This document shows positions 6,641 through 24,403 of a stretch of DNA of 24,403 bases, one piece after another. The stretch is from a virus. The stretch lies in the IMG/VR virus record IMGVR_UViG_3300029989_000149, positions 1 to 24,403 of that record; one strand, given 5' to 3'. Numbering within the stretch: the first letter of the stretch is position 1; each line of letters begins with the position of its first letter. The notes beneath the pieces are model-generated. The model had not been told where the DNA came from. It did no database searches and saw only the letters and a program-made list of their open reading frames with translations. The translations under genes were made by a program, and so were the position numbers.

Positions 6641-6676
6641 TACCCTTTCAAAGGGGACGAGCGAAGCGGAGGGGTT
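6641..6676. repeat. Dispersed GC-rich repeat, copy A
   Basis: On the plus strand it reads CCCTTTCAAAGGGGACGAGC followed by GAAGCGGAGGGG. CCCTTT/AAAGGG can pair. In transcript direction it begins with the last bases of the endolysin stop codon (TAA followed by CCCCTCCGC). A near-identical copy lies at 7456-7494 and related ones at 7102-7123 and 20796-20863. Confidence 0.75.
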
Positions 6677-7088
6677 ATACCAATGAATTTAATTTCGTTA
6701 CTAAATCCTGAGACACAATGCCTGTCATAGCCAAACCCACAATCTCCTGGGCGCGTTTTATGCCGGCTGCAGTACCTTCAAGAACTGCAGCATCTACTAA
6801 TATGTCTGCAATTGATTGATCACGGATACCATCGCCACCTACTTTATCCCAAAAATTCAACTTATAGAATCCAGTCACCAGATCGCTGAGAGTTGGATTA
6901 GTATAGCAGTTCTTTGGGAAGTTCTTACCATCTTTCTTACAAATGTCTATAATTGCCCAACCCGACCATTTCGGCCAGTATACACGGCTAATACCCTTGT
7001 ATGTTTCACCACCGGCATCATCCGGATCATTCACATACCCGCCTTCATTAAGAAGGACTTTTGCGATTGCTTTCTTGTAGTCTGCCAT
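6675..7088 (-). CDS. GH108-type endolysin (N-acetylmuramidase)
   Basis: A 137-residue protein from ATG 7088-7086. NEGGYVNDPDDAGGETYKGI (residues 14-33) is the signature of glycoside hydrolase family 108 muramidases, with Glu15 the expected catalytic acid and the DxGGxTxxGI loop. The C-terminal half (ADILVDAAVLEG, then IKRAQEIVG) matches the peptidoglycan-binding region usual after the catalytic part (PG_binding_3-like). At 137 residues it is shorter than the usual 170-180. There is no signal peptide, consistent with holin-dependent export. It cleaves the glycan backbone of peptidoglycan at lysis; a role in tail puncture is possible because it lies next to baseplate genes, but the flanking holin and exported proteins favour lysis. 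Confidence 0.85.
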   Translation of the reverse strand: MADYKKAIAKVLLNEGGYVNDPDDAGGETYKGISRVYWPKWSGWAIIDICKKDGKNFPKNCYTNPTLSDLVTGFYKLNFWDKVGGDGIRDQSIADILVDAAVLEGTAAGIKRAQEIVGLAMTGIVSQDLVTKLNSLV

Positions 7089-7101
7089 AATTCTTATTTT
7101 T

Positions 7102-7123
7102 AAGCCCCTTTGGGATTTGGGGT
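7102..7123. repeat. Dispersed GC-rich repeat, short copy C
   Basis: AAGCCCCTTTGGGATTTGGG sits between the endolysin start and the stop of the gp25-like gene. It shares the CCCCTTT/GGGG core of the repeat family but lacks the GACGAGCGNAGCGG part. Confidence 0.45.
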
Positions 7124-7434
7124 CAATTCGTTGTAATGTTTAATCTATCTTTATAGTCCTCGTAGTCAATACCGACACGGGTTAAATGCTGTTTTATTCT
7201 CAATTCAATTTCAGAACTGGAGTACTTACTTCTAATAGTTTGCGTAAGTCCCGGTCCGAGTATAGGGTCTTCTTTAAAATCGCAAGGCCTTGATTTAAGT
7301 ACACAAACAACTTCCTGATCAACACACGCACCAACCATTATACCTGAAGTAATCAAGCCCGAAGAATCACGGATAACCCTAATGGATAATCCCATGTTTT
7401 CAGTCAATAATATGCCTTTTCTATCCTTATTCAT
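7123..7434 (-). CDS. gp25-like baseplate wedge protein (candidate)
   Basis: A 103-residue protein from ATG 7434-7432. The region DFKEDPILGPGLTQTIRSKY (residues ~53-72) resembles the segment of gp25/gpW-like wedge proteins where a short conserved motif precedes helices that form the wedge core. The N-terminal half has short strands. It follows the spike gene, as Mu gp46 follows gp45, and precedes the J-like gene after the lysis block. No signal peptide or membrane segment is present. The assignment rests on gene order and a weak motif match. Confidence 0.5.
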   Translation of the reverse strand: MNKDRKGILLTENMGLSIRVIRDSSGLITSGIMVGACVDQEVVCVLKSRPCDFKEDPILGPGLTQTIRSKYSSSEIELRIKQHLTRVGIDYEDYKDRLNITTN

Positions 7435-7455
7435 AATCTATTTTTTCCTTCTTAC

Positions 7456-7494
7456 TGTCCCCTTCCAAAGGGGACGAGCGTAGCGGAGGGGTTT
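7456..7494. repeat. Dispersed GC-rich repeat, copy B
   Basis: GTCCCCTTCCAAAGGGGACG followed by AGCGTAGCGGAGGGG. The first part is a near-perfect hairpin (GTCCCCTT/AAGGGGAC around CC). In transcript direction it starts right at the spike gene's stop codon (TAAACCCCTCCGC), as copy A does for the endolysin. It may act as a terminator or mRNA-end element, but no U tract follows. Confidence 0.75.
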
Positions 7495-12781: not shown

Positions 12782-14032
12782 TTATGAAATTTTAGAAGTT
12801 AAACCTAAATCGACATTGAATTCGTGAACAATATCACCTACCTGTACCTGTGCAGTTACAGCCATAGGCGTTTGCGCGTTTACATTTTGAGTCGGATTGA
12901 TATACACGTCAACAGCATCAGCATTACCAATATTCACCATACTTGCAGTCAATTTATCAACTACTTTTTGTTGTGTACCACTAATCCATGTTGTTTTAAT
13001 TGTACCATCAGTTTCTTTAGGAACTTTCGACCGTACAAGCGGAATCAGAGTAGTACGAATGATTCGTGCAGCCTTATTCCAGATACAGTTGAAATTAAAG
13101 AAAGCATAATCGCTTGTTGCTTCAACTGCCGTTGGACAACCGGACAAATACCAACCATCGTATTGCTCAAATTTACCGACGTAGATATATCCTTTATTAC
13201 TCAACGAAGTTTGTTGAGCCCCTGACAATGCCGAAAACAAAGTCCCATCACTCAAAGCCGCACTAGTCCATTTTCCAAGGGTTGCATCGGCTATTGAAAA
13301 AGCTTCATTTCCCTTTTTAGCCGACGGCTTATTTTCAATATTTACAGAACCTAAGTCTTCATGCACTTTGCGTACAGCTACAGAACCCAACACAGTACCC
13401 ACAGCACCATGAGTTGCATAAGCAACATTCAAAGAAGCCTGAGCAGGGTCATGCATATCAACTACGCTGATATTAGGAGCTGCAAGCGTACGCAAATCGA
13501 ATAGATCAGTACCGGTATTATGAAAATCCGCATTAGCAGCTTTTGCCTTCCCTTCCAGGAACACACCATCAATCAGAATCTTTTCAGTAGCGAAGGCATT
13601 TACCCAAGCCTGTAATGCCAATGCATCAGTATTGATCACGTCAACAGTAGATGAAGCAATACCGGCTATACCTATTACATTTCTACCAGCTACACCACGA
13701 ATAGCAGCTTTGACATCATCATCAGCTACCAAAGCAGCAATGGTTGTCGTTTTCACCACCGGAAGCAAATAATACGTGAACCCCGGACACAACCTGAACA
13801 TTTCGTCCAAATGGTAGTGAACCAGTTCACTGTTATTATTATCCGATGCAGCAGTAATACCCAACGCTTCGACACTTGTAATGTCTAGGCATTCGATTAC
13901 TGTTTTATGAACAACCTTACCGGCTATTGGAGTGACACCACATATCAGTACAATAACCCTATCCTGACTATCAGTGGAGCGACCCAAACCGCCGTTAAGC
14001 TTGTTTATATTAGCACCTGTAAACGTTCCCAT
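12782..14032 (-). CDS. Contractile tail sheath protein (DUF2586-like)
   Basis: A 416-residue protein from ATG 14032-14030. It starts GTFTGANINKLNGGLGRSTD and continues with alternating strands and helices; SELVHYHLDEMFRLCPGFTYYL lies near residues 68-89. The C-terminal part carries YDGWYLSGCPTAVEATSDYA and NIWNKAARIIRT-type segments (about 293-330), followed by a closing strand domain (VGDIVHEFNVDLG). 'Y..GwYlsG.p.a....sDYa' recalls the 'h.dG.y..g..m.....sdy' region of DUF2586 sheath proteins of Bacteroidota phages. The presence of a sheath plus J-like wedge makes this a myovirus-type particle. Its stop and the tube start are 2 bp apart; the sheath start overlaps the upstream stop by one base. 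Confidence 0.75.
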   Translation of the reverse strand: MGTFTGANINKLNGGLGRSTDSQDRVIVLICGVTPIAGKVVHKTVIECLDITSVEALGITAASDNNNSELVHYHLDEMFRLCPGFTYYLLPVVKTTTIAALVADDDVKAAIRGVAGRNVIGIAGIASSTVDVINTDALALQAWVNAFATEKILIDGVFLEGKAKAANADFHNTGTDLFDLRTLAAPNISVVDMHDPAQASLNVAYATHGAVGTVLGSVAVRKVHEDLGSVNIENKPSAKKGNEAFSIADATLGKWTSAALSDGTLFSALSGAQQTSLSNKGYIYVGKFEQYDGWYLSGCPTAVEATSDYAFFNFNCIWNKAARIIRTTLIPLVRSKVPKETDGTIKTTWISGTQQKVVDKLTASMVNIGNADAVDVYINPTQNVNAQTPMAVTAQVQVGDIVHEFNVDLGLTSKIS

Positions 14033-14424
14033 TATTCAGCGGCTTTTAAAGTTTCAAGTTTTTTTGCAGCAGCAGCAATCACCGTTTTGCGGGCATCACC
14101 TGCAGCAAGTTCATTCACTGCCTCAGCAGTTTCGGCAGCTTCAATAAGTGCAATCACTTCATCGGCTGTTTTTTTCTCTTTACTACCTTCGGCTTTCGAT
14201 TCGAAATCATCACGCGTAAACGTTTCTAACTTCAGTTCTTTACCGTACGAATTCACCTTACTGTGATTCTTAGCAGCAGCATCGCTTTGGTCTGAAATAA
14301 ATGCCTGACCGTCGCTGGCCACAATCACCTTATGAGCATCAGAATATCTATTTAAAATATCTTTTGCCACTTCCTTTTGTTCATCCTTACTTAGGACTTT
14401 TAATTCGGCTTTCTTTGTTTCCAT
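14032..14424 (-). CDS. Small head- or neck-associated hypothetical protein
   Basis: A 130-residue, charged protein from ATG 14424-14422. The N-terminal half (ELKVLSKDEQKEVAKDILNR, then VASDGQAFIS) has a compact helix and strands; residues 77-130 are almost entirely charged or Ala and helical (ADEVIALIEAAETAEAVNEL, then AARKTV-type stretch). It lies between the capsid gene and the sheath gene. It may be a capsid decoration or head-tail connector protein, but I do not recognise a family. No signal or membrane segment. Confidence 0.6.
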   Translation of the reverse strand: METKKAELKVLSKDEQKEVAKDILNRYSDAHKVIVASDGQAFISDQSDAAAKNHSKVNSYGKELKLETFTRDDFESKAEGSKEKKTADEVIALIEAAETAEAVNELAAGDARKTVIAAAAKKLETLKAAE

Positions 14425-14465
14425 TATTATGTTGAATGAAAATGAATATTAATGTTTTTTACATA

Positions 14466-14501
14466 TACTTTCCCAAAGTTTATTTCAACTTTGGGAAAGT
14501 T
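14466..14501 (-). terminator. Perfect hairpin after the capsid gene
   Basis: ACTTTCCCAAAGT (14467-14479) and ACTTTGGGAAAGT (14488-14500) pair perfectly over 13 bp, with one further T-A pair closing the loop. No U tract follows on either strand (minus: ATATGTAAAAAAC), so it is more likely a partial terminator, RNase stop or 3'-end stabiliser that lets capsid mRNA accumulate above the downstream genes. Confidence 0.65.
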
Positions 14502-14515
14502 ATAGAGGTGTTAGC

Positions 14516-15442
14516 TTACGGTACAATACCGCTAATCAATGCACCAACTGCAACATCCTGAATGCGATCAACAATACCGTAAGCTTGCAAACGGAATTTT
14601 GATGTTGGTGATTTACTTTTTGTATCGGTAGTTTCAGGCGAGTACAGAATTTTTACTGAGTCAATCCATGCAACAGTATTTGGAGCATAGTAGAACACAG
14701 ATGCATATCTATCAGTCGAACCAAGTGCAGCACCTTTTGCTTTCTTTACATTGGCCGAAGTATAAGCAACAGAAGCATTGTTTTCGAAGAATTTGAAGCC
14801 CAATACACTGCGAACTTTACCCGTTGTTGGGTCAAAGAACACATTATTCGATGCGAAAAATGCTGCTGTTTTTGTATCAAGAATTAAGTCACCTGAATGT
14901 TCTGCACAAAGAACCATGTAAATCTGATTTGGGTCAGCCAAGTTCAATGCTTTCACCTTTTGAAGATAGTTAACCAAATCTTCAAATGTCAAACGTTTAC
15001 GACCAGTACCATCGTTAGCACCGGTAGTACGCATCACTGGCATTTTTACATTTGTATCGTTCGAAGGAGCAAGTTTCCAAATTGCATGGTCACGAAATCC
15101 CATTTTAAACTTTTCTGAATGCTTAGTTCTTACGGAACTACGTTTGTCAAATGACAATGCCTTCATTTCGGCATCAGTAACAGCGGTTGGAGCTGTATCG
15201 TAAACCTCCCAAGCAACAAATCCCTTACCGCCTGGCATTGAAGTATCAGTAAAGTCCTCAGTGTTGTCCACAAAGAACTGAACGTTATTTTCAAGTTTAT
15301 TGAACTTCAAACCATCAGATGTTTTTGCACCTTCATCAGGTTTTCCAAGCGTTTGAATAAACGCATCATCCATGTTTTGGAATTCATCCAACAACTTTGG
15401 AGACACATACTGGTTAAGCCAGTTACCTTCAGTGTATACCAT
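14516..15442 (-). CDS. Major capsid protein
   Basis: A 308-residue protein from ATG 15442-15440. It begins VYTEGNWLNQYVSPKLLDEF and shows features of HK97-fold capsids in Bacteroidota Mu-like phages: an N-terminal arm, a strand-rich E-loop region, a long helix near residues 172-190 (FEDLVNYLQKVKALNL), and a closing beta region (TGKVRSVLGFKFFEN, then VAWIDSVKILYSPET). It is followed by a strong hairpin, and sits right after the protease/scaffold gene, the classic order protease-scaffold-capsid. No homology search was possible; position and size are strong. Confidence 0.75.
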   Translation of the reverse strand: MVYTEGNWLNQYVSPKLLDEFQNMDDAFIQTLGKPDEGAKTSDGLKFNKLENNVQFFVDNTEDFTDTSMPGGKGFVAWEVYDTAPTAVTDAEMKALSFDKRSSVRTKHSEKFKMGFRDHAIWKLAPSNDTNVKMPVMRTTGANDGTGRKRLTFEDLVNYLQKVKALNLADPNQIYMVLCAEHSGDLILDTKTAAFFASNNVFFDPTTGKVRSVLGFKFFENNASVAYTSANVKKAKGAALGSTDRYASVFYYAPNTVAWIDSVKILYSPETTDTKSKSPTSKFRLQAYGIVDRIQDVAVGALISGIVP

Positions 15443-15462
15443 TTTTTTTAATCTCCTATAAA

Positions 15463-15930
15463 TTAATTAATACCTTTTCTGTTTTTCCAATCAGCAAATA
15501 AAGCCGCAAATACTTCCGATTTATTTTCTGCCAAATCAGCTAACAATGCAGGATTTTCAGCCTCCAATTGTTCGTACGACTTACCGTTGTAAGTCTTAGT
15601 TCCATTTTCAGCAGACACCACAATTTCACTCGACAAAGCACTCACTACCTGAACAGCTTCAAGAACCTTGATAGTAGTTTCGTAGTTAGCTTCGAGCATA
15701 GTCTGCCAGTTGGCGCGAGTGTCCGCAGTAATGCGGTGTTCCTTTTCAGCTTTATCAAGGGCTGCCTTGATGTTAGCCGCTTTTTCAGTTTTTTCCTTTT
15801 GAGCTGTAGCAGCTACTAAGGCATCATAATCACCGGCTTTCTTTGCATTTTCAGCAATTTTAGCAGTAATCTCAGGTTCAGTTGCAGTTGCAGCCAAACC
15901 AAGCGTGAGAGCAATAGCTTGTAAATTCAT
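15463..15930 (-). CDS. Possible internally started scaffold protein
   Basis: In frame within the protease gene, an ATG (15930-15928) begins MNLQAIALTLGLAATATEPE and covers only the helical scaffold part (155 residues). It is preceded by an A-rich stretch (AAAGATAACGAA), compatible with initiation in Bacteroidota. Lambda Nu3 and Mu gpZ are made in the same way from within their protease genes. No protein evidence is available. Confidence 0.4.
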   Translation of the reverse strand: MNLQAIALTLGLAATATEPEITAKIAENAKKAGDYDALVAATAQKEKTEKAANIKAALDKAEKEHRITADTRANWQTMLEANYETTIKVLEAVQVVSALSSEIVVSAENGTKTYNGKSYEQLEAENPALLADLAENKSEVFAALFADWKNRKGIN

Positions 15931-16596
15931 TTCGTTATCTTTATTTTGGTTTAAAATAATATATTCAGGTGAGAAGTCGAGCGGCGAACCACTGGCTTTA
16001 ATTGATGCGGCCAAAGCCTGGGTAACCTTAACCGGTTCTTTTACTTCAGTTACAAAACCCCAGTCTTTTGCTTCCTGGGCTGTCATCCAAAAATCACCAC
16101 CATCCCATTTAGCTAGGAAATCAGGCTCAGGCTTTTTTAGTTTTGCTTTGTATGAACCATAGTATGAAATTGTCATATTCTTGAGCAACTTCAAATAATT
16201 CTCCATATCAGTTTCAGTTCCATAAACTGAACCAGCCGGCTTATGAATCATAAACTGACCATTCTTAGCCATCAGGAATGAAGTTGCATTCACAGCAATA
16301 TAAGTTCCGGCACTTGCTACAATTGCACCACCCTCACCGGTATACGAACCAAAAATTTCTATGAGTATGTTTACAATTTCATTGGCCTGAAAACAGTCAC
16401 CGCCATTTGTCATCAAATAAACCAGGCACGAAGTAGCACCGGCATCCTTTACCTCCTGGCATCGTTCCCTGAAATCAATGGCATTATTATCACCCCATTC
16501 CGAAATGTTTCCAATAATGTCAACGCGACCTACCGTTCCTTCCGATTTAATACTAATTTGCAATCCTGGCATAAGCTCTAAAATTTGTTGTTTCAT
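15463..16596 (-). CDS. ClpP-type prohead protease with C-terminal scaffold
   Basis: A 377-residue protein from ATG 16596-16594, first gene of the leftward operon. Residues 1-190 form an S14 (ClpP-like) fold: IDIIGNISEW-type start, TNGGD (63-67), nucleophile Ser95 in IVASAGTYIA, His118 in MIHKPAG, and the likely acid Asp168 in GGDFWMTAQEA, aligning with the ClpP 'D-x-F-x-S-A-x-E-A' motif. Residues ~225-377 are helical, Ala/Glu/Lys rich (KIAENAKKAGDYDALVAATA, then KAALDKAEKEHRITADTRAN), the expected scaffold part. The protease cleaves head proteins including the scaffold during capsid maturation, as Mu gpI/gpZ. An internal ATG at 15930-15928 could yield a separate 155-residue scaffold. Confidence 0.85.
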   Translation of the reverse strand: MKQQILELMPGLQISIKSEGTVGRVDIIGNISEWGDNNAIDFRERCQEVKDAGATSCLVYLMTNGGDCFQANEIVNILIEIFGSYTGEGGAIVASAGTYIAVNATSFLMAKNGQFMIHKPAGSVYGTETDMENYLKLLKNMTISYYGSYKAKLKKPEPDFLAKWDGGDFWMTAQEAKDWGFVTEVKEPVKVTQALAASIKASGSPLDFSPEYIILNQNKDNEMNLQAIALTLGLAATATEPEITAKIAENAKKAGDYDALVAATAQKEKTEKAANIKAALDKAEKEHRITADTRANWQTMLEANYETTIKVLEAVQVVSALSSEIVVSAENGTKTYNGKSYEQLEAENPALLADLAENKSEVFAALFADWKNRKGIN

Positions 16597-16610
16597 AATC
16601 GAATCGGCAA

Positions 16611-16618
16611 CAAATGTA
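16611..16618 (-). promoter_or_regulatory. Candidate promoter for the leftward late operon
   Basis: On the minus strand the sequence reads TACATTTG, a perfect TAnnTTTG core, 15 bp before the protease ATG. The -33 position reads only TTTTT rather than TTTG and lies in the outermost iteron (16630-16650), as expected of an activator-dependent promoter. Confidence 0.5.
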
Positions 16619-16629
16619 AAGCGTTATTT

Positions 16630-16733
16630 ATGTAGATAAAAATCACGTTTTCATGTACTTACGAATTTTATAGTACAAAATAAAATTCATTTAGTAGAAC
16701 ATAAAATTCTTATTGTAGATAAAATCATGTTTT
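16630..16733. promoter_or_regulatory. 21-bp iterons in the divergent late promoter region
   Basis: Three direct repeats start at 16671 (TAGTACAAAATAAAATTCAT), 16692 (TAGTAGAACATAAAATTCTT) and 16713 (TTGTAGATAAAATCATGTTT), spaced exactly 21 bp (two helical turns). A fourth at 16630 (ATGTAGATAAAAATCACGTT) matches the third best. All share (T/A)(A/T/G)GTA-x(3-5)-ATAAAAT. They fill the gap between the two divergent promoters, so one regulator could control both late operons. The binding protein is not identified. Confidence 0.6.
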
Positions 16734-16762
16734 GTTTTTCCACGTAAATAGGTACAACTTTG
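16731..16762 (+). promoter_or_regulatory. Candidate promoter for the rightward late operon
   Basis: TTTG (16731-16734), a 20-bp spacer and CAACTTTG (16755-16762) fit the Bacteroidota promoter TTTG-N19-21-TAnnTTTG with one mismatch in the -7 core. It lies 20 bp before the terminase small subunit ATG. The -33 box overlaps the end of the last iteron. Confidence 0.55.
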
Positions 16763-16782
16763 CATAAAAATCAGAGCAAAAA

Positions 16783-17337
16783 ATGAGAAAAAACAAGGCT
16801 GTAAGAAAAAAGATTGACCGGAAGCCAAAACTTACGGATGCCGAATATCAAAAGCTTAAGTTTACTGGATATGAGTATGTAGTTGTCCAGGGAAAAACCC
16901 AAAAGGAAACGGCTGAACTGTTAGGACTCACCGAACAGACAATTTCGGACTGGGCACGCACAGGCGGTTGGAAGGAACAACGCGAAGGCAGGCAACAGTC
17001 ATCACGCACTGAAGCTGAAAACATCCGTCAAATCATCCGGATAAACTCAGAACGCCGGTTAGAAATTGAGGGTGAAATAGCAACTGCAGTAAGAACAGCA
17101 AATAAAAGTTTAGAGTCAACACTTCGTTCTGAAGCCAATTGTTTATCTGATAATTCAGCAAAGTGGGCTAAAACATTGCGCGATATGGAGAAAAACAACA
17201 AGTACTCACTTGGAGAACTCATCAACATGATGGACGATCTGTTTACCGACATGCGCCAACACGACCCCGAACTATTTGAGAAAACGATCGCTTTCCAACA
17301 ATACTACATTCGCAAAAAGACACAGGAGCTAGGGTAA
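16783..17337 (+). CDS. Terminase small subunit
   Basis: A 184-residue protein, first gene of the rightward operon. A helix-turn-helix lies at residues ~35-65: GKTQKETAELLGLTEQTISD followed by WARTGGWKEQR, the arrangement of phage terminase small subunits (DUF1804-type) where the HTH recognises the packaging start. A central helical region (~90-130) probably drives oligomerisation, and the C-terminus ends in helices (FEKTIAFQQYYIRKKTQELG) that may contact the large subunit. It directly precedes the large subunit gene with only a 61-residue gene between. The family is well supported by motif and position. Confidence 0.8.
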   Translation: MRKNKAVRKKIDRKPKLTDAEYQKLKFTGYEYVVVQGKTQKETAELLGLTEQTISDWARTGGWKEQREGRQQSSRTEAENIRQIIRINSERRLEIEGEIATAVRTANKSLESTLRSEANCLSDNSAKWAKTLRDMEKNNKYSLGELINMMDDLFTDMRQHDPELFEKTIAFQQYYIRKKTQELG

Positions 17338-17338
17338 C

Positions 17339-17524
17339 ATGAAACTATCTATATTCGATTTTATCAGATTAAGATACTACACTGAAGTATTCAAAACTAT
17401 GTATTTTTTGGATGATCATATAACCTATAAACCGGCGCAAGAAATGCATCAGTATTGGTTAGAGTATTATCGTAATAAAATATCATTTCTGTTAGAAAAA
17501 CAAAACAATAAAATGTTTAAATAG
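17339..17524 (+). CDS. Small hypothetical protein between terminase genes
   Basis: A 61-residue protein whose ATG comes one base after the terminase small subunit stop; its TAG lies in the 17-bp TTTAAATAGCATTTAAA element that also reaches the next ATG. It is rich in Phe, Tyr, Leu, Lys (RLRYYTEVFKTMYFLDDHI) and largely helical, ending EKQNNKMFK. There is no recognised motif. It may assist packaging, but only position suggests that. Confidence 0.55.
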   Translation: MKLSIFDFIRLRYYTEVFKTMYFLDDHITYKPAQEMHQYWLEYYRNKISFLLEKQNNKMFK

Positions 17525-17532
17525 CATTTAAA
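17516..17532 (+). repeat. 17-bp junction element, copy 1
   Basis: TTTAAATAGCATTTAAA: arms TTTAAAT and ATTTAAA are inverted around AGC. It spans the stop of the 61-residue gene and the A of the terminase large subunit ATG. Identical copy at 19499-19515; a one-base variant at 22734-22750. Confidence 0.75.
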
Positions 17533-19070
17533 TGGCAACAAAAAGAGTTCAGGACAAACTATTAGCCGAACAATACCTCGCAAAGCTTGACATTACAAGC
17601 AAGTCGAACGATGTAAACCCATTCGAGACTAAAGCAGAACAACAGGCACGAAAAAAGCGGGCAATACTGGATGTTGTCTACATGGTTGAGACATATTTAC
17701 CACACTACGCCACTGCCGAATGTGCCGAGTTTCAAAAAATGGCAGCCAATGAAGTAGCCTACGATGATCTGATTATAATGTTCATAGAATGGTTTCGTGG
17801 AGCTGCTAAATCTGTTTGGTGCGATGTCATCATTCCATTGTGGTTGTGGATGCGTGGTGAGGATGTTTTTCTTTGCCTAATGTCCGATTCTGTTGAGCGC
17901 GCTCAGGAACTATTAGCCGATATACAAGCCGAGTTGGAAGGTAACCAGTTACTCATTCACGATTTTGGAGCGCAAAAGCGTGAGGGTTCGTGGGAGTTCG
18001 GAAATTTCAATACCTTAGACCAACGTTTTATTGGCAAGGCTTTCGGTATAAAAAAGAAAGTGCGTGGTGTACGTATCAAACACCGTCGCCCCAACCTATG
18101 GGTTATTGATGATTTGGAAACACCTGATACAATCGGTAACCCCAAACGCATGCGTAAACAGGCCGAACAAATTGAGCGCGACATCCTGCCAACCATGACC
18201 GGAAACAAACGCCGGTTACTGTATGCCAACAATAAGTTTGCAAGGGTTATGACCCAAACCATACTGCAGGAAAAACACCCAGACTGGAAAGTAAACCAGG
18301 TGAAAGCATACAACAAAGTAACCTATGAACCTACATGGCCTGCCATGTACACACCGGAGTATTATATGATTCAGGAAAAAAATATGGGTATTCCTGCAGC
18401 CTATTCCGAGTATTTACACGAATCAATTTTACAGGGTAAGGTATTTAGCGAAAAACAAATACAGTGGGGTAAAATGCCCGAACTGAATGAGTTTAAAATG
18501 ATCATTGTTCATTGGGATATCGCTTATACCGACAATGACACATCAGACTACAATGCTTGCAAGGCATGGGGTTTATCAACTGATAATAACTTTTGGCTGA
18601 TTGACTGCTATGTCAAACAATCAAAAATGAAACAGGCAGTAGCATGGATGTGCCAGTTTAAAAAACAACTTCCTGATGGTACGAATGTAATTTTCCAATA
18701 TGAATCACAGTTCTGGAACGGTGAGGTACAACGCGCCATTGATGAGGTAGAATGGGAATATGGTATTTACCTTAACCTTATGAAAGTAATGGTTGCTAAG
18801 GTAAACAAGCTCATGCGTATGATTACCAAACAACCATACTACCAAAATGGACGTATTTATTATAGCGACAAGTTGAAAAGCCATTCAGATACTCAGGTTG
18901 GGATAATGCAGCTTTGCGCAGTCGAAGAAGGTAGTACCGAACACGATGATAGTCCTGATGCTGATACTGAAGCTTTGGAAGCTCTCGAAAAATACTCTAC
19001 GCCAACCAGGCGTGAAACAGATCAATCATGGAGCACAGGTAAAATGACAGTCACTTACAACATCAGATAA
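17532..19070 (+). CDS. Terminase large subunit
   Basis: A 512-residue protein. ATPase part: WFRGAAKS at residues 87-94 is the Walker A-like motif; WVIDDLE at 190-196 is the Walker B with the acidic catalytic residue. Nuclease part: the RNase H-like strand IIVHWDIAYTDNDTSDYNAC (324-343) supplies the first catalytic Asp (~329), and an acidic cluster near the end (HDDSPDADTEALEA) is likely to supply the last. These domains cut concatemeric or, in Mu-like phages, host-integrated DNA and pump it into the prohead through the portal. The length is typical. Upstream is the small subunit; downstream are DUF1320-like and portal genes. Confidence 0.9.
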   Translation: MATKRVQDKLLAEQYLAKLDITSKSNDVNPFETKAEQQARKKRAILDVVYMVETYLPHYATAECAEFQKMAANEVAYDDLIIMFIEWFRGAAKSVWCDVIIPLWLWMRGEDVFLCLMSDSVERAQELLADIQAELEGNQLLIHDFGAQKREGSWEFGNFNTLDQRFIGKAFGIKKKVRGVRIKHRRPNLWVIDDLETPDTIGNPKRMRKQAEQIERDILPTMTGNKRRLLYANNKFARVMTQTILQEKHPDWKVNQVKAYNKVTYEPTWPAMYTPEYYMIQEKNMGIPAAYSEYLHESILQGKVFSEKQIQWGKMPELNEFKMIIVHWDIAYTDNDTSDYNACKAWGLSTDNNFWLIDCYVKQSKMKQAVAWMCQFKKQLPDGTNVIFQYESQFWNGEVQRAIDEVEWEYGIYLNLMKVMVAKVNKLMRMITKQPYYQNGRIYYSDKLKSHSDTQVGIMQLCAVEEGSTEHDDSPDADTEALEALEKYSTPTRRETDQSWSTGKMTVTYNIR

Positions 19071-19074
19071 CTAT

Positions 19075-19503
19075 ATGAAATACATTGATGAAACTGACCT
19101 TGCATCGGTCATACAAGAACGCTTCTTAGATGAAAGCACTGCCAACATTGCAGGCAATACAAATATATTGGATAATATCGAATCAAAGGCCATTGAGTAT
19201 GTTATCTCATACATTACCGGCAGATATAAAACTAACCTGATATTTGCAGAAACAATACCACTGGCCAGCGGAATATTAAAGCAAATCATTGCTCAGATAG
19301 TCGTTTATCGTGCCGTAAAACGCAACGCAGCACGCAAAGTCCCCGAAGACTATGTAACACTTATGTCCGATGCCACAAAACAGTTGGAACGCATTCAATC
19401 CGGTGCAATGTCATTGGTAGGCATGCCACTTCAAACCGATGATTCAGGTAACACAACACCGGTTCTTTTCGGCAACACAACTAATAGTAGTAACTTCATT
19501 TAA
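19075..19503 (+). CDS. DUF1320-like (Mu gp36-like) head protein
   Basis: A 142-residue protein, 4 bp after the terminase large subunit. It begins MKYIDETDLASVIQERFLDE and continues with helices (ESKAIEYVISYITGRYKTN), then RNAARKVPEDYVTLMSDATK and a Gly/Ser-rich end. The helical bundle with a YI-x-GRY stretch fits DUF1320, the family of Mu gp36 that lies in the head-tail joining part of the genome. The gene end contains copy 2 of the 17-bp element. The exact step (connector or head completion) is inferred. Confidence 0.65.
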   Translation: MKYIDETDLASVIQERFLDESTANIAGNTNILDNIESKAIEYVISYITGRYKTNLIFAETIPLASGILKQIIAQIVVYRAVKRNAARKVPEDYVTLMSDATKQLERIQSGAMSLVGMPLQTDDSGNTTPVLFGNTTNSSNFI

Positions 19504-19515
19504 ATAGCATTTAAA
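19499..19515 (+). repeat. 17-bp junction element, copy 2
   Basis: TTTAAATAGCATTTAAA, identical to the copy at 17516-17532. It contains the stop codon of the DUF1320-like gene and ends 4 bp before the portal ATG at 19520. Confidence 0.75.
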
Positions 19516-19519
19516 CACT

Positions 19520-22078
19520 ATGGCTAAGTATTTAGACAAAATAATTAACGCAACAGTAGAAGCCGTTTTAAGCAAAGCAAATAACGGAACTATTTTCAGT
19601 GAGTACTACAAGCGTACCGAAGCTGCAAGTAAAATAGACTGGACAAAACTGCCAACACATTTCATTTCTAAAACAATAGATGACTGGGCTATGTCAATTA
19701 TGCAGGCTACAGACACCTATGACCCACGCCGTGGAATGTTGATGCGCTTCAATAATTCTATGAAGCTTGACCTTCACCTAATGTCATGTATCGACAACCG
19801 TATATATCCAATTCAATGTGCACCATATAAATTCGTTGATAAGTCTAAAACCGAAAACGAAGATGCGCATGCACTTTTTGAACGTCCCTGGTATATTGAC
19901 ATAATCAGAATGATGTGTATGCATATTTACGATGGAACAAAGCTTATCGAAATGATTGAGTTGAACGATAAAGGTGAGTTAAGCTGCGTAACAGAAATAC
20001 CTCAGTCAAATTTTCTACCAATCAAAGGACTTGTTATAAAGGAAGAATATGACACTACCGGTGTGAGTTACAAAACTGGCGTATATGCTAACTATTACGT
20101 GCAGATTGGAAACGATTATACACTAGGCATGTTGAGCGAACTAGCCATGATAGTCCTGGCCAAGAAACTCGGTTTAGGTTCGTGGATGTCATACATTGAA
20201 AAATATGGAGTACCTCCTATATTTGCAATTACCGACCGTCAGGACGATGCCAGGGCACAAGAACTTTTTAAAATGCTTCAGGCATTTCGTTCAAATCATT
20301 TTGCCATACTTAAAGGCAATGAGAAAATTGAAATACCGGATGGCAACAATGCCGATGGTTACCAATCATTCAGTAGTTTAAACACGCATGCCAACAGTGA
20401 ATTGAGCAAACGCATTCTTGGAGGTACAGGAATGACCGATGAGAAAAGTTTTGTGGGTGCAGCCGAAATACATGAACGTCTATTGAAATATAGAATTCAA
20501 GTAGACAAGTTGATTATAAAGTTCTACCTGAATGAAGAAATTATACCTCGTTTAGTTAAGTTGAGTTCTGTATATGCACCATTAGCTAACCTAACATTTG
20601 ACTGGGATGATACTGAGAGTCTTACATTAGCACAGAAAATTACAGCCGTTAAAGACCTTGCACCTTACTTCAAGTTTGACCCTGAAAAGTTAGCTAAACT
20701 TACAGGTCTACCAATCACTGATGTAAGAGATATTTTATCCAGTGTAACTCCACCACCTGTAAACGACCCTCAAAAAAAAAAGCCTAATGCGTCCGTAGCG
20801 GGCGCAAATTCTTTAGATTTCCCCTTTGCTAAAGGGGAATACCCGAAGGGGAAGGGGTTTATTTACATTCATGCAGCCACCTGGGATGCTGCTACCGAAC
20901 GTCTGGCCACACAGCTTTATAACGGTGAAATAAAACCGTCAGACTTAGACAAAGACTTAGTGCTAAAGAATTATTCAGCACTAAGTAAGTCAGCTGAAGC
21001 TGCATGGGGAAACGGTTACTATACCGATGACAAAACCCGCCAGTTCCGTGAGAACTTGTTACAGTTCTCAGGTGCAAAAGCAAACGACTTAATGACTCGA
21101 CTGGATGATTTACGTGCCAACAGCAAGGACAAAGAATCATTCATTACAGATGCTAAGAAATTGGTTGCATTGCACAATGAAACCTATCTCAACGTTGAGC
21201 AAAAGTTTGCGGCAAACTCAGCCAGTACTGCTAAAGACTTCGAACAGTTTGTGAAAGATGTTGATATTTATCCATGCCTTACTAATCGCACAATGGGCGA
21301 TGGTAACGTTCGCGATACGCACGCAGAAAACGAAGGCGTTACTAAACCTGTAGCTGAATGGATTGAAACTCCACCTTATGACCCCGGATGTCGCTGTTGG
21401 TTAGAACAATCAACTGACGAACCTACAAAAAACGGATTGGTGAACCTGGACTCTAAGTGGGCAAACAATCCGTATACTTCAGGTTGCATTTTTACGGACA
21501 AACACAGTTACTTTGAAAGCATACCTGAAAATACATATCCCGAAGTAATGGGCAATGCTGAAATGATGAAACAATATGTTCCATACAACGAAGTAATTGA
21601 CACAGATAATGGAAACAAAGTATTGGTAAACGATTTTGTTGACCAATTCGACCTGAGCAGTAACATTATTGCAGCAAAGAAAGTGGCTGATGAGCTAAAT
21701 ACTGATATCTATATACGTCATCATATTGAAAGTGGCTTTGTTACCGGCGTAAAAAATCCGGAGTTAGGAATTGGTACACCCAACAAATTAGGTGATTTAA
21801 AGACATTTATTGACCTAAAGAACTCATTATCCAGGTTTATAACCAATAGATTAAGCGCATGTGATGATCAGTTGTGTAAATACGCTATTTTAGACGTTAC
21901 AGCATACAATAAACCGGACTTAGATGTTATACTTAAACGGCGTTTATGTGGTGAATTAACTGATAAAATGAACCAAAACATCACTGATGTGATAATAATT
22001 AAGGGGAATAAAGTAAGTAAAATCACCCGAAAACAAGTTCAAAAACGTGATTTTACAAGCTTCTTGAAAGGTCTGTAA
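19520..22078 (+). CDS. Portal (DUF935-like) - MuF - putative nuclease toxin fusion
   Basis: An 852-residue fusion. Residues 1-~415 look like a DUF935-type portal (Mu gp29-like), with YDPRRGMLMRFNNSMKLDLH near the start and ADGYQSFSSL later. A linker (426-448) is encoded by a dispersed repeat. Residues ~450-640 are MuF (SPP1 gp7-like): NRTMGDGNVRDTHAENEGV then PPYDPGCRCW. Residues ~650-852 form an extra domain: AKKVADELNTDIYIRHHIES, TPNKLGDLKTFIDLKN with Asp759, Asp765 and Lys767, and NITDVIIIKGNKVSKIT. The Asp...DxK pattern recalls PD-(D/E)xK CdiA-type tRNA nucleases. MuF-toxin fusions are known in phages. A terminator follows and no immunity gene adjoins. Usual portals are ~500 residues. Confidence 0.7.
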   Translation: MAKYLDKIINATVEAVLSKANNGTIFSEYYKRTEAASKIDWTKLPTHFISKTIDDWAMSIMQATDTYDPRRGMLMRFNNSMKLDLHLMSCIDNRIYPIQCAPYKFVDKSKTENEDAHALFERPWYIDIIRMMCMHIYDGTKLIEMIELNDKGELSCVTEIPQSNFLPIKGLVIKEEYDTTGVSYKTGVYANYYVQIGNDYTLGMLSELAMIVLAKKLGLGSWMSYIEKYGVPPIFAITDRQDDARAQELFKMLQAFRSNHFAILKGNEKIEIPDGNNADGYQSFSSLNTHANSELSKRILGGTGMTDEKSFVGAAEIHERLLKYRIQVDKLIIKFYLNEEIIPRLVKLSSVYAPLANLTFDWDDTESLTLAQKITAVKDLAPYFKFDPEKLAKLTGLPITDVRDILSSVTPPPVNDPQKKKPNASVAGANSLDFPFAKGEYPKGKGFIYIHAATWDAATERLATQLYNGEIKPSDLDKDLVLKNYSALSKSAEAAWGNGYYTDDKTRQFRENLLQFSGAKANDLMTRLDDLRANSKDKESFITDAKKLVALHNETYLNVEQKFAANSASTAKDFEQFVKDVDIYPCLTNRTMGDGNVRDTHAENEGVTKPVAEWIETPPYDPGCRCWLEQSTDEPTKNGLVNLDSKWANNPYTSGCIFTDKHSYFESIPENTYPEVMGNAEMMKQYVPYNEVIDTDNGNKVLVNDFVDQFDLSSNIIAAKKVADELNTDIYIRHHIESGFVTGVKNPELGIGTPNKLGDLKTFIDLKNSLSRFITNRLSACDDQLCKYAILDVTAYNKPDLDVILKRRLCGELTDKMNQNITDVIIIKGNKVSKITRKQVQKRDFTSFLKGL
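20796..20863 (+). repeat. Dispersed GC-rich repeat, copy D, in frame within the portal fusion
   Basis: Within an AT-rich gene, a GC-rich block holds GTCCGTAGCGGGCG, then CCCCTTTGCTAAAGGGG and CCGAAGGGGAAGGGG. CCCCTTT/AAAGGGG forms a hairpin. It encodes SVAGANSLDFPFAKGEYPKG, low in structure, joining the portal and MuF parts without breaking the frame. The hairpin core is related to copies A, B and C on the other strand. Confidence 0.65.
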
Positions 22079-22081
22079 ATC

Positions 22082-22119
22082 AAAACAGGCTATAAACCGA
22101 AGTCTATAACCTGTTTTTT
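22082..22119 (+). terminator. Intrinsic terminator after the portal fusion
   Basis: AAAACAGG (22082-22089) pairs with CCTGTTTT (22110-22117), with four more pairs (TATA/TATA) after one mismatch and a 10-nt loop, followed by T residues. A second short hairpin (GCACTTC...GAAGTGC, 22121-22148) comes next. It probably reduces read-through into the virion morphogenesis gene. Confidence 0.65.
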
Positions 22120-22166
22120 GGCACTTCGCAGCCGTAGCTTAGAAGTGCTGCAAATATAATACATTT

Positions 22167-22757
22167 ATGGATAATAAATACAAAATACCGGATTTTTCTT
22201 CAATGGGTAAAGATTTACTCAAAGATGCTGCACGGTATGCGGGTTCTGAATCGGTCAAGTTCTTTAAAAAAAGCTTTGTAAAGGAAGGTTTCACCGATAC
22301 ATCATTTGTACCTTGGAAAAAGACTACCAATCCAATGGCCGGTAAACGTACCATGTATAAATCAGGTACATTGATGCAATCTATCCGTAAAACTGAAGGT
22401 ACAATTAGACGTATAGTGGTTGAATCAAAAACTGACTATTCAGAAATACAAAACAATGGTGGAACTATTACCGTAACTCCACAAATGAAAAAGTTCTTTT
22501 GGGCAAAATTCTACGAATTTAGTGGAAAGATTAAGCTAAGTAAAGAAGGCACATCAGCATCATTTAGAAATAAAGGAAATAAAGAAATCAGCCAAAAAGC
22601 AATGTTTTTTCGGCGAATGGCAATGATGAAAGTCGGTTCAAAAATCAAAATACCAAAACGCCAGTTCATGGGTGACAGTAAAGTAATGATGACCGGCTTC
22701 GATTCCTGGTGGAAAGGTCAGTTAGAAGTATCATTTAAACAGCATTTAAATAAGTAA
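22167..22757 (+). CDS. Virion morphogenesis protein (Mu gpG-like)
   Basis: A 196-residue protein. KSGTLMQSIRKTEGTIRRIV (~66-85) followed by SKTDYSEIQNNGGTITVTPQ (~89-108) and later GSKIKIPKRQFMGDS (~155-169) match the phage virion morphogenesis family of Mu gpG (a minor tail or head-tail component): the 'tg.L..Si......V.vgt...YA.iqn.GG' and 'iPaR.Fl' pattern. Basic overall. It lies after the portal fusion, the usual place of gpG. It starts after a terminator, so it probably needs read-through or its own weak promoter. Copy 3 of the 17-bp element lies at its end. Confidence 0.75.
   Translation: MDNKYKIPDFSSMGKDLLKDAARYAGSESVKFFKKSFVKEGFTDTSFVPWKKTTNPMAGKRTMYKSGTLMQSIRKTEGTIRRIVVESKTDYSEIQNNGGTITVTPQMKKFFWAKFYEFSGKIKLSKEGTSASFRNKGNKEISQKAMFFRRMAMMKVGSKIKIPKRQFMGDSKVMMTGFDSWWKGQLEVSFKQHLNK
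22734..22750 (+). repeat. 17-bp junction element, copy 3 (one-base variant)
   Basis: TTTAAACAGCATTTAAA differs from the other two copies by one base. It lies in the last codons of the virion morphogenesis gene (encoding FKQHLNK) and 12 bp before the next ATG. Confidence 0.7.
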
Positions 22758-22761
22758 TAAT

Positions 22762-23307
22762 ATGGAATACTGGAGCGATTTATATTTAGAGTTAAGTCAG
22801 AAAATAACTGACAATCTTCCCGGAATTGAATGGTGCGACCTTTGGCACGAACAAGTAAATTACCTTACTGCAGAATTACCGTTTCCAACACCGGCTGTAT
22901 TTATTGCTTTCAACCTGTTGAATGCAGATGACAAAGGTATGAAAGGCCAGTTATGCAATACGCAAATAGACTTCTATTTGTTTTACGAAACATTCTCAGA
23001 TACTTATGCAGGTTCAATCAATAGAGATTCAGCAATAAACTACCTGAAGCAACTCACCGAGATACACAAACTATTCCACGCCACTTCCGGTGATAATTAT
23101 TTCGAGATGCGACGTGTTGACATGAAGCGTGAAGATAGTGGCGATGCCGGGAACTTGTATCGTATATCATTCCAGTGCATAGTTGATGATATGTCTGCAA
23201 CGCATGACTTCAATGAAGAAACTGTAACAGATATCAGTATCATTCGAGAAAGCACACCGGGTCAAGTTGAAGATGCTAATCCATCTTTCAGAATAGAACT
23301 ACAATAA
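22762..23307 (+). CDS. Tail terminator-like protein (DUF1834/gp37 position)
   Basis: A 181-residue protein, 4 bp after the virion morphogenesis gene. Its size, helical N-terminus (WSDLYLELSQKITDNLPGIE), then strands (FPTPAVFIAFN, CNTQIDFYLFY) and a helix (SAINYLKQLTEIHKLFHAT), followed by strands (YRISFQCIVDD), fit a tail terminator / gp37-like fold that caps the tube. It lies in the slot after gpG, as DUF1834 does in Mu-like phages. Family identity is inferred. It is the last gene before the convergent terminator. Confidence 0.6.
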   Translation: MEYWSDLYLELSQKITDNLPGIEWCDLWHEQVNYLTAELPFPTPAVFIAFNLLNADDKGMKGQLCNTQIDFYLFYETFSDTYAGSINRDSAINYLKQLTEIHKLFHATSGDNYFEMRRVDMKREDSGDAGNLYRISFQCIVDDMSATHDFNEETVTDISIIRESTPGQVEDANPSFRIELQ

Positions 23308-23309
23308 AC

Positions 23310-23345
23310 AATAACGGATATACAACTCAATGTATATCCGTTATT
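23310..23345. terminator. Bidirectional terminator between convergent operons
   Basis: AATAACGGATATACA and TGTATATCCGTTATT form a perfect 15-bp stem with a 6-nt loop (ACTCAA). It starts 3 bp after the tail terminator-like gene and ends 5 bp before the stop of the minus-strand 62-residue gene, so it serves both directions. Confidence 0.85.
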
Positions 23346-23349
23346 TATA

Positions 23350-23538
23350 TTATCTATATCCTAACCAATCAATTGCAGTACTTAGTGATATTGCACGTTC
23401 TGAAGACAACTTAAGTACATTAATAGTTCTATCGAATGACTTACAGACCTCATATACTTTAATTATATCTTTCATTTCAAATGCGCATGATGTATCAATT
23501 GCTTTTAAAACATTTTTCTGCAATAAATCAAGTTCCAT
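23350..23538 (-). CDS. Small helical protein in the convergent operon
   Basis: A 62-residue protein from ATG 23538-23536, 3 bp downstream of the 69-residue gene stop and 5 bp before the shared terminator. It is almost entirely helical (LLQKNVLKAIDTSCAFEMKD, then VYEVCKSFDRTINVLKLS). No motif recognised. A plus-strand frame (23330-23566) overlaps it, but the tight spacing to the upstream gene and terminator supports this strand. Role unknown. Confidence 0.55.
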   Translation of the reverse strand: MELDLLQKNVLKAIDTSCAFEMKDIIKVYEVCKSFDRTINVLKLSSERAISLSTAIDWLGYR

Positions 23539-23541
23539 ATA

Positions 23542-23751
23542 TTATTTCTTTTCATTAAGTTTCTGATAATATTCATTATTTCCTTTATGGTAGAATATGC
23601 GTGAGTAAATATACTTAGGGTCAAGAAAGAAGTGATTCTCAGACAAATCATCAAGAACATCGTCTATACGCTTACGTTTCACGTCATATTGTTCGTGGAA
23701 TTTCTCCACGATTTTACGGTCACGCAGTTGTATAAGTTCTTTCTGTCTCAT
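23542..23751 (-). CDS. Small basic protein, candidate DNA-binding regulator
   Basis: A 69-residue, basic, helical protein from ATG 23751-23749. RQKELIQLRDRKIVEKFHEQ (2-21) leads to YDVKRKRIDDVLDDLSENHF (22-41), then DPKYIYSRIFYH. The layout, with a helix, a KRKRIDDVLDDL stretch and an 'ffl.p.yI..ii' helix, resembles small winged or homeodomain-like helix-turn-helix proteins of Bacteroidota prophages. It sits right next to a palindrome GTTGTAAATTACAAC and three TTGTAACCTTT repeats, consistent with an autoregulating DNA-binding protein. DNA binding is inferred from composition and context. Confidence 0.6.
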   Translation of the reverse strand: MRQKELIQLRDRKIVEKFHEQYDVKRKRIDDVLDDLSENHFFLDPKYIYSRIFYHKGNNEYYQKLNEKK

Positions 23752-23752
23752 A

Positions 23753-23767
23753 GTTGTAAATTACAAC
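23753..23767. promoter_or_regulatory. Palindromic operator candidate
   Basis: GTTGTAAATTACAAC is a perfect 15-bp palindrome starting 1 bp upstream of the ATG of the 69-residue gene. Its half-site TTGTAA recurs in the three direct repeats at 23819-23853. Probably an operator acting on the transcript start or early leader of that gene. Confidence 0.55.
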
Positions 23768-23818
23768 ACAAAGTAACAAAGAAATATTTATCTAAAAAAC
23801 ACTTATATCAAACAAAAA

Positions 23819-23853
23819 TTGTAACCTTTTTTGTAACCTTTATTGTAACCTTT
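23819..23853. repeat. Three 12-bp direct repeats TTGTAACCTTT
   Basis: TTGTAACCTTT occurs at 23819, 23831 and 23843 with an exact 12-bp period. The half-site TTGTAA is shared with the palindrome at 23753-23767. Their location upstream of the small regulator and near the inferred right end of the element fits regulator or transposase binding sites. Confidence 0.7.
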
Positions 23854-23881
23854 GGTATGTTTTCATACATTTATTCAACAA

Positions 23882-23914
23882 AAAGGCGGTCGTATATTTA
23901 ATTACGCCGCCTTT
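23882..23914 (-). terminator. GC-rich hairpin near the right end
   Basis: AAAGGCGG and CCGCCTTT form an 8-bp stem, extended after a bulged T by CGTA/TACG, with loop TATTTAAT. On the minus strand it is followed by TTTTTGTTG, so it can act as a terminator for leftward transcripts arriving from the right. Confidence 0.55.
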
Positions 23915-24240
23915 ATTGTACTTAAACCTATCATCTATTAAACCAAAACGTTACCTTTGCATACAGTTCATTTAAATATACTGCAATAAATTAAATATAA
24001 ATTCAATCTATATTAAGTCTGAATCACGATTTGAAGAAGCACATAATTTTGTTTTTCGTATTTATTCATTTGTATATCAATCAATTAAAAAACTTTCGGC
24101 GCGCGTTCGTTCTTTCACGGTTCGTTGTGCCCCTCTCATAAGACAAATTTGTGCATTAATATGACATTAAAATCAGATTTCAAACTCCCACTAAGCTTCA
24201 ATTTTGAAATAATCCAATCCAAAAACTATAAAAATAATCG
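23915..24240. other. AT-rich non-coding stretch between the element and pheT
   Basis: I see no credible gene here. It contains a TACCTTTG core (23952-23959), AT-rich sequence to about 24090, and a GC-rich patch (GGCGCGCG, with two CGTTCGTT/GGTTCGTT-like repeats) near 24098-24130. The right boundary of the prophage probably lies in or near this interval; no duplicated att site can be seen because the left end is outside the window. Confidence 0.4.
23952..23959 (+). promoter_or_regulatory. TACCTTTG promoter core
   Basis: A perfect TAnnTTTG -7 core, rightward, but without a TTTG about 20 bp upstream. It might drive a long leader for pheT or be fortuitous. Confidence 0.35.
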
Positions 24241-24248
24241 TATCTTTG
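24241..24248 (+). promoter_or_regulatory. TATCTTTG promoter core upstream of pheT
   Basis: TATCTTTG is a perfect Bacteroidota -7 core, 30 bp before the small ATG frame and 118 bp before the pheT ATG. No clear -33 TTTG is seen. It is the likeliest promoter for pheT in this window. Confidence 0.45.
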
Positions 24249-24278
24249 TGGCTTCAAAAAAATTACAACTTATTTGTT

Positions 24279-24356
24279 ATGAAACGAGCATGTTTTACCC
24301 ACACTAAAGATTCAGATAAAGGTGTCATGCGAGTTCCACGTAACATTAAAATTTAA
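24279..24356 (+). CDS. Possible 25-residue leader peptide before pheT
   Basis: An ATG frame (MKRACFTHTKDSDKGVMRVP, then RNIKI and stop) lies between the TATCTTTG promoter core and pheT, ending 10 bp before its ATG. It has just one Phe codon, so it is not an obvious phenylalanine attenuator. It may be a short leader or chance. Confidence 0.3.
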   Translation: MKRACFTHTKDSDKGVMRVPRNIKI

Positions 24357-24366
24357 TTATTTACAC

Positions 24367-24403
24367 ATGAATATCTCGTATAATTGGCTGAAACAATACA
24401 TTA
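24367..24403 (+). CDS. pheT: Phenylalanyl-tRNA synthetase beta subunit, first 12 residues (cut by right edge)
   Basis: The last 37 bases encode MNISYNWLKQYI, which matches the strongly conserved start of Bacteroidota PheT (MNISYNWLK-x-Y). PheT, with PheS, charges tRNA-Phe. It marks the return to host chromosome. Only the start is visible, so the call rests on this short but distinctive string. Confidence 0.7.
   Translation, partial: MNISYNWLKQYI

Follow-up and report, generated by a model that had tools for sequence, protein, structure and literature searches.

A putative CdiA_C-type PD-(D/E)xK nuclease at the C-terminus of the portal-MuF protein of a Mu-like phage, and a candidate small RNA beside its gene

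MuF polymorphic toxins are believed to be shot into bacterial cells together with the phage DNA, and few of them have been studied. Injection is proposed for these proteins in the passages that two studies devote to them (PMC5576092; PMC5512222). The toxins described in the first of these passages come mainly from Firmicutes, possess a small downstream open reading frame (ORF) in 89.4% of 191 cases and include members of the PD-(D/E)xK class cd13442 (PMC5576092), which bears out an earlier remark on the locus treated here that phage MuF-toxin fusions are known. MuF and portal proteins are also treated in PMC3482391. Here we describe a stretch of viral DNA of 24,403 nucleotides (positions 1 to 24,403 of the IMG/VR record IMGVR_UViG_3300029989_000149, hereafter the window), in which a preliminary description had noticed a putative nuclease toxin at the C-terminus of a portal-MuF fusion. 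We consider it probable that this fusion protein is a nuclease effector delivered by the virion, with a domain of the CdiA_C type and an active site formed by E748, D759 and K761. The protein and its parts are located in the window as follows:

19520..22078, plus strand: gene of the portal-MuF-nuclease fusion, 852 amino acids (ORF translation, Pfam, PHROGs)
19757..20710, plus strand: Mu-type portal domain, residues 80-397 (PF06074, E 6e-54)
21176..21400, plus strand: MuF domain, residues 553-627 (PF04233, E 1.3e-4, under the curated cut-off)
21536..22075, plus strand: predicted PD-(D/E)xK nuclease domain of the CdiA_C type, residues 673-852 approximately (AlphaFold2, structural match 4g6v_A, hhalign)

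The reading of the 852-residue ORF as a portal part, a MuF part and an extra C-terminus from about residue 650 proved correct (PF06074, E 6e-54; PF04233, E 1.3e-4). PHROGs agrees with Pfam on the portal and yields weaker head-morphogenesis matches from about residue 586. The portal and MuF parts are followed by a C-terminal domain, which measures about 180 residues. Its relatives, taken from bacterial genomes, from viral contigs and from a single phage record, were arranged in two alignments (A2 with 16 rows; A3 with 17 rows, the window included). The family CdiA_C (PF18451) was matched by 9/16 rows of A2 at the loose limit of E <= 1, the best at 2.2e-10; neither the window row of A2 nor the window piece alone gave a match, and the family is thus recognized for the group only. 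MT835523 scored 25.5 bits in one run and 27.1 bits in another, on either side of the cut-off of 26.6. Among 395 Bacteroidota genomes PF18451 is present in eight, and the seven loci over the cut-off served as a comparison alignment from which the eighth was left out. When A3 was aligned to these seven loci with hhalign, a probability of 94.8% (E 5e-8) was obtained, and the KNPE and DLK motifs came to lie over the acidic positions of the toxins.

The comparison with CdiA-CT and PD-(D/E)xK folds, by which the preliminary description proposed to check its assignment, came out in its favor. An AlphaFold2 model computed with A3 reached a predicted local distance difference test score (pLDDT) of 87.7 and a predicted template modeling score of 0.82, and its top match among 999 chains was 4g6v_A, a CdiA-CT tRNase (Z 9.3, 121 residues aligned, root-mean-square deviation 3.1), followed by 5j4a_A, another CdiA-CT, with Z 6.6. 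A model from the single sequence (pLDDT 41.4) was not used. The closing strand that had been read from the sequence is also seen in the model, as strands 186-191 and 194-199 of the piece, which correspond to residues 823-828 and 831-836 (residue number of the protein equals piece number + 637). Five matches at E <= 0.001 were obtained in BFVD, comprising one contact-dependent inhibition toxin-like protein, three minor capsid proteins and one mycobacteriophage MuF fusion, and an 883-residue portal protein followed at rank 6 (E 1.5e-3). By these matches, proteins named as capsid components elsewhere share this architecture, and in one case it apparently sits on a portal as well.

Several results weigh against this assignment. 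The window domain alone matched no Pfam or NCBIfam family above cut-off, and the window piece matched no PDB chain by sequence. With a smaller alignment of seven rows, hhalign gave 70.5% only, and a profile search reached 4g6v at no better than E 0.65. Foldseek against the PDB alone found nothing at E <= 0.001, and the Z of 6.6 for 5j4a_A is on par with that of unrelated carboxylase domains (6.5). Taken with the relatives in A2, the hhalign result and the match to 4g6v_A, homology and structure prediction nevertheless support the assignment of the domain to the CdiA_C (Bp1026b-like) group of PD-(D/E)xK nucleases, with a predicted dependence on metal.

The conserved positions of the domain in A3 are:

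21716..21724, plus strand: R733-x-H735, invariant (17/17)
21761..21763, plus strand: E748, first acidic residue, within NPE (17/17)
21794..21802, plus strand: D759-L760-K761, the DxK pair (D and K 17/17)

Invariant in all 17 rows are N715, R733, H735, G743, N746, E748, I751, D759 and K761. E748 is part of KNPE, eleven residues ahead of D759, and K761 is the lysine of the motif (GDLK). Because relatives of the type NPEYLIN...LADLK exist, we take the first acidic residue to be the glutamate of NPE. E748, D759 and K761 are hence the predicted active site, an assignment supported by homology and by the structural model. Asp759, Asp765 and Lys767 had been put forward before; Asp759 stands as an invariant residue, while Asp765 and Lys767 are not conserved. 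The accompanying doubt, which arose from an Asn in place of the usual Asp after Pro, can be set aside: the Asn of TPN lies at a two-residue gap that the majority of distant relatives (NPEYLIN-type) show, and since these have a gap there, nothing catalytic is replaced by it. For 4G6V, the residues E187, D214, D223 and K242 are listed in Table 1 of PMC9086364. In the profile-search alignment D214 and D223 fall over E748 and D759, with a numbering inferred from spacing.

Outside A3, eight relatives were inspected, and five of them (loci L003, L037, L039, L040 and L041) keep the glutamate, aspartate and lysine. The exceptions weigh against the assignment: Thr replaces the Lys in L038, Ala replaces the Asp in L042, and the MuF protein of Winogradskyella phage Peternella_1 (L009:6272-7435) has Q, K, T, E and V at the positions of R733, H735, E748, D759 and K761. 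Peternella_1 retains the domain (E 2e-27) despite the loss of its catalytic set, and together these three make a non-enzymatic role possible. The domain might then serve the portal vertex structurally or by binding nucleic acid, with its chemistry vestigial; the inactive PBECR domain described on gpF of phage Mu in PMC5512222 provides a parallel. We regard this as distinctly unlikely, in view of E, D and K being invariant in 17/17 rows though the 16 relatives in A3 are only 21-53% identical to the window, of the exchange of the domain as a block, and of other MuF proteins that lack any such extension.

This exchange emerged from the comparison with the nearest sister phage, which is represented by loci L002, L005, L021 and L049 alike:

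21535..22148, no strand: exchanged block, without DNA similarity to the sister phage; its flanks align at 80-84%
21464..21514, plus strand: junction motif NNPYTSGCIFTDKHSYF, residues 649-665 (loose-pattern scan; alignment A4 of 19)

DNA identity to the sister phage is 84% over 13595-21535 and 80% over 22148-23198, with nothing aligned in between, and a second, smaller gap spans 23198-23542. On the protein level, 573/657 aligned positions are identical over residues 1-666 but 60/167 over residues 667-852, against 159/196 in the next gene. The substitute in the sister phage is another, distant PD-(D/E)xK domain. This exchange is seen in one pair of phages. The break lies a few residues after the junction motif, and variants of NNPYTSGCIFTDKHSYF terminate the MuF part in proteins whose C-termini are of other kinds. 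The loose junction pattern was found in 20/25 MuF proteins scanned, one of them (L030) being doubtful. A survey of 395 genomes returned 28 MuF matches in 24 genomes, and the A3 profile matches seven of these proteins along the domain. As judged by eye, the others have another nuclease-like domain, PBECR-like or ADP-ribosyltransferase-like domains, an unassigned C-terminus or no extension. MuF C-termini are thus varied among Bacteroidota phages.

A nuclease in this position could also act within the particle or in packaging, on concatemer ends or on phage DNA at the portal, rather than on the host. The portal fusion in the lineage of the window would indeed place up to twelve copies of it at the packaging vertex. 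The top structural match, though, is a tRNase toxin, and in related phages the corresponding position is occupied by unrelated domains (labeled PBECR-like, papain-like and metallopeptidase-like by eye), which fits effectors better than a packaging enzyme. A role in packaging is therefore highly improbable in our judgment.

We searched the surroundings of the gene for an immunity gene. The gene that follows is:

22167..22757, plus strand: neck or tail completion protein, not an immunity gene (phrog_26, E 5e-9)

In the window, no plus-strand ORF of at least 45 amino acids lies between the stop codon of the fusion gene and this next phage gene. The first plus-strand gene of some size past the stop starts 69-155 nucleotides from it in the window and 14 relatives and encodes 162-216 amino acids; PHROGs identified it as the neck protein (phrog_26) in 11/11 loci scored (the window and 10 others; four were not submitted). 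Short plus-strand frames overlap the spacer in L018 (45 amino acids) and L020 (56 amino acids), and the minus strand of 17 spacers contains only scattered frames of 12-47 codons that are unlike each other by eye. As far as the sequences indicate, no immunity gene adjoins the toxin domain in the window and its near relatives, in agreement with what had been noted for the region directly downstream.

The protein might still be a classical polymorphic toxin against competing bacteria, with its cognate immunity protein encoded elsewhere in the prophage. Such a role would suit a C-terminus that is exchanged as a block between flanking proteins of 81-87% identity, and Bacteroidales MuF toxins such as Bxa adjoin immunity proteins, as described in the pertinent passages of PMC11699363. 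Three places in the loci could be read in this way. The first is a minus-strand ORF of 62 amino acids (23350-23538), which sits in the second segment without counterpart in the sister phage. We consider it an unlikely immunity gene, as it is essentially confined to the window's own phage (G003): in 10 records searched, the only match beyond G003 was in G402, where a portion of a frame of 323 codons aligned with E 0.01 and an identity of 27%. The second is the next gene in the distant loci L041 and L042, which encodes about 220 amino acids and is not the neck gene; the L041 product has no Pfam match. This gene also lies downstream of short, toxin-less MuF genes (L065, L067) and is hence not linked to the toxin. 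The third is a pair of small annotated ORFs between the MuF gene and the neck gene of Peternella_1. Given these findings and the neck gene in every scored locus, a classical toxin of this kind with its immunity protein elsewhere appears unlikely to us.

Past the neck and tail-completion genes, the window also has a minus-strand ORF of 69 amino acids (23542-23751), with similarly placed relatives in L002, L016, L017, L022 and L003 (52-96% identity). In L039 (wider locus L047:6161-8610) a SocA/Panacea antitoxin gene is immediately followed by the remnant of a MuF-nuclease gene. This antitoxin was dropped as a partner; it probably has one of its own, because a small gene, which we take to be MqsR-like, is located directly upstream of it. 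In L027, a free-standing CdiA_C-like ORF (5914-6498) and a metallopeptidase-like ORF (6647-7255; weak PF01863 match, under the cut-off) are consecutive and upstream of an apparent large terminase gene. Both begin with the same ten residues, MGKSSGGIRN, perhaps a targeting leader.

The spacer downstream of the fusion gene had been described as the site of a terminator. There is indeed a hairpin after the stop codon, yet the contents of the spacer go beyond a terminator and include a promoter box and a further hairpin on the opposite strand:

22151..22158, minus strand: promoter box TATATTTG, a Bacteroidota -7 element, with TTG 22 nucleotides upstream (box scan of spacers)
22082..22145, minus strand, ends approximate: candidate small RNA, consisting of a hairpin with a 2x2 internal loop (22124-22145), then a UUCG-loop hairpin and a T run

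Bacteroidota promoters are characterized, in the relevant part of PMC7366714, by a -7 element TAnnTTTG and a TTTG near -33. Exactly one minus-strand TAnnTTTG box occurs in each of 15 spacers, where shuffles predict 7% per spacer, and none on the plus strand. With L037 and L038 added, the box and a terminator-like hairpin are found in 17/17 loci, and 15 have a TTG 17-24 nucleotides upstream. The combination of box, -33 element and terminator occurred 14 times in 13 stretches with 347,868 strand-bases (window positions 1-7207 counted twice), and ten of these occurrences are the spacer itself according to the per-locus list. The hairpin behind the box has a 2x2 internal loop, which is GC/AA in 8/17 loci against 0.28 expected; the window, with TA/GC, stands outside these eight. 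A strong second hairpin ends in T near the stop codon of the toxin gene and has a UNCG loop in 9/17 loci by our count. Folding energies, computed with 30 nucleotides of the toxin gene end included, lie 1.6 to 6.4 standard deviations below those of mononucleotide shuffles.

In the sister pair, the body of the RNA falls within the exchanged block, so that toxin domain and RNA are replaced together. In a comparison of 15 phages, the similarity of the RNA goes along with that of the toxin when the neck gene is allowed for (partial r 0.67, 0/5000 permutations), whereas the corresponding value for RNA and neck gene with the toxin allowed for is 0.13 (p 0.14). Peternella_1, with its degraded site, has no such spacer element; its portal identity (41.5%) makes it about as distant as MT835523 (39.4%). 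These observations raise the possibility that the spacer RNA, transcribed convergently from its own promoter, fills the immunity slot as a cognate controller of the portal nuclease, both forming one exchangeable cassette. Such an RNA would act on the nuclease as a decoy or regulate its synthesis.

A number of observations count against this idea and in part against the element itself. The co-variation of RNA and toxin can stem from mere adjacency. Counted over all nuclease loci (duplicates, the truncated loci L007 and L025 and the remnant L039 left out), the element is present in 17/20, with L040, L041 and L042 lacking the box. The box is also located near MuF genes with other C-termini, for example in L055, L056, L059 and L071, and the element is hence not specific to the nuclease. 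A covariance model built from six spacers (A9) found 0/11 of the held-out boxed spacers (window, L016-L020, L028, L029, L032, L037 and L038) and made two matches only, both weak and both in L009. Pairing counted by hand gave 84/84 paired cells in 14 loci (L028, L029 and L032 left out) against 43.6 in shuffles, a figure that is biased because each hairpin was chosen for its pairing. The last hairpin of the window is flanked by T runs on both strands and was not listed by the terminator scan, and under a stricter rule 5 of the 20 loci have no minus-strand terminator while 4 have one on the plus strand.

Further searches were negative or uninformative. The stem could not be aligned across groups with MAFFT, and Rfam produced no match at gathering score in 12 sources (133,530 bases), its E-value matches lying far below these scores. 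Complementarity of the RNA to its own gene start, taken as the first in-frame ATG, was not found in 11 phages (z -0.9 to 1.5), which does not support a simple antisense block of translation initiation. A scan for sigma-70 promoters found 20 sites where 26.8 were expected, and is uninformative here. That short MuF genes lack the element is a confounded observation, because phage lineage differs as well and most of these genes have no spacer. In L040, L041 and L042 the minus strand of the spacer has a different sequence, with inverted repeats that end in a long T run by eye. We therefore designate the spacer element a candidate small RNA, and its role as a cognate controller appears quite unlikely to us.

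The remaining gene content of the window points to a Mu-like, contractile-tailed phage. Upstream of the fusion gene, Pfam and PHROGs recognize a small DNA-binding or terminase-small-like protein, the large terminase and a gp36-like adaptor; the opposite strand encodes a Clp-type protease, the major head protein, the sheath, the tape measure and the baseplate hub. The MuF domain and the toxin-type domain at its C-terminal side thus lie within the packaging module, the arrangement by which MuF polymorphic toxins are recognized. Relatives of the portal-MuF part were found in 51/50,697 phage records, namely Bacteroides, Flavobacterium, Porphyromonas and Winogradskyella phages or unnamed ones. On the predicted assignments given above, the portal protein of this phage, whose hosts would be Bacteroidota-type bacteria, ends in a nuclease of the CdiA kind.

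The record IMGVR_UViG_3300030943_000085 shows no difference from the window in the stretches compared, 1-7207 and 13520-24139, and contains different DNA afterwards. The window from 24139 to 24403 looks host-derived, with the phage end apparently near 24139, and an ORF start near 24368 resembles pheT. That both records share the phage up to 24139 and then differ is consistent with two insertion sites of a transposing Mu-like phage. At 6632-6676 and 7448-7494 the window has a repeat of about 45 bp, which recurs in the sister phage (89-91% identity). Internal DNA repeats at 2191-2612 lie inside ORF 1920-2744, whose PHROGs matches are of the tail-fibre and collagen-like kinds.

For the virion-delivered nuclease effector that we favor, the following course can be envisaged. 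The fusion protein would be incorporated into the capsid at the portal vertex through its portal and MuF parts, and the nuclease or a fragment released from it would enter the new host along with the DNA. There it would cut host nucleic acid, with tRNA as the likeliest substrate by analogy with 4G6V. Portal protein is usually made late in infection. An immunity protein may not be needed, because the producing cell is lost anyway during assembly, and a newly infected cell that turns lysogen would face only few injected copies. The small structured RNA from the opposite strand of the spacer, as a candidate, may add control. With a portal-borne nuclease and no adjacent protein immunity gene, phage and lysogen might be protected by this RNA. 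If so, immunity to polymorphic toxins would be conferred by RNA as well as by proteins; if not, the phage suggests that immunity is dispensable for a toxin tied to the virion.

When compared to described systems, the window domain resembles the PD-(D/E)xK domains of CdiA-CT proteins (PF18451; PDB 4G6V and 5J4A; cd13442) in its fold and in the order of the NP-acidic motif and the aspartate. CdiA-CT domains differ in being carried by a secreted filament, whereas the window domain rides on a phage portal-MuF protein without an adjacent immunity gene; moreover, the lysine listed for 4G6V lies 19 residues past the second Asp, while that of the window is within DxK. The MuF polymorphic toxins of Jamet et al. 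2017 likewise combine MuF with a variable C-terminal nuclease near portal and terminase genes, as far as the toxin passages of PMC5576092 describe them, but the window represents a Mu-like phage of the Bacteroidota type in which the toxin is fused to the portal and no small ORF follows. Bxa and other Bacteroidales toxins are MuF toxins of prophages as well; Bxa, however, is an ADP-ribosyltransferase neutralized by two cognate immunity proteins, according to the sections of PMC11699363 on it, whereas for the predicted nuclease of the window no such gene was found. Similar in architecture are the polyvalent or MuF-PBECR proteins, described by Iyer et al. 2017 in the corresponding part of PMC5512222 as an RNase fused to MuF and portal that is predicted to be injected; this RNase has the BECR fold, and the window domain that of PD-(D/E)xK. 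MuF fusions with this toxin class and predicted portal-MuF-RNase fusions are hence already published. What sets the window apart from these is the portal-MuF-PD-(D/E)xK fusion, as predicted here, in Mu-like phages of the Bacteroidota type, with no adjacent immunity gene in near relatives and with a candidate RNA element in the spacer behind it.

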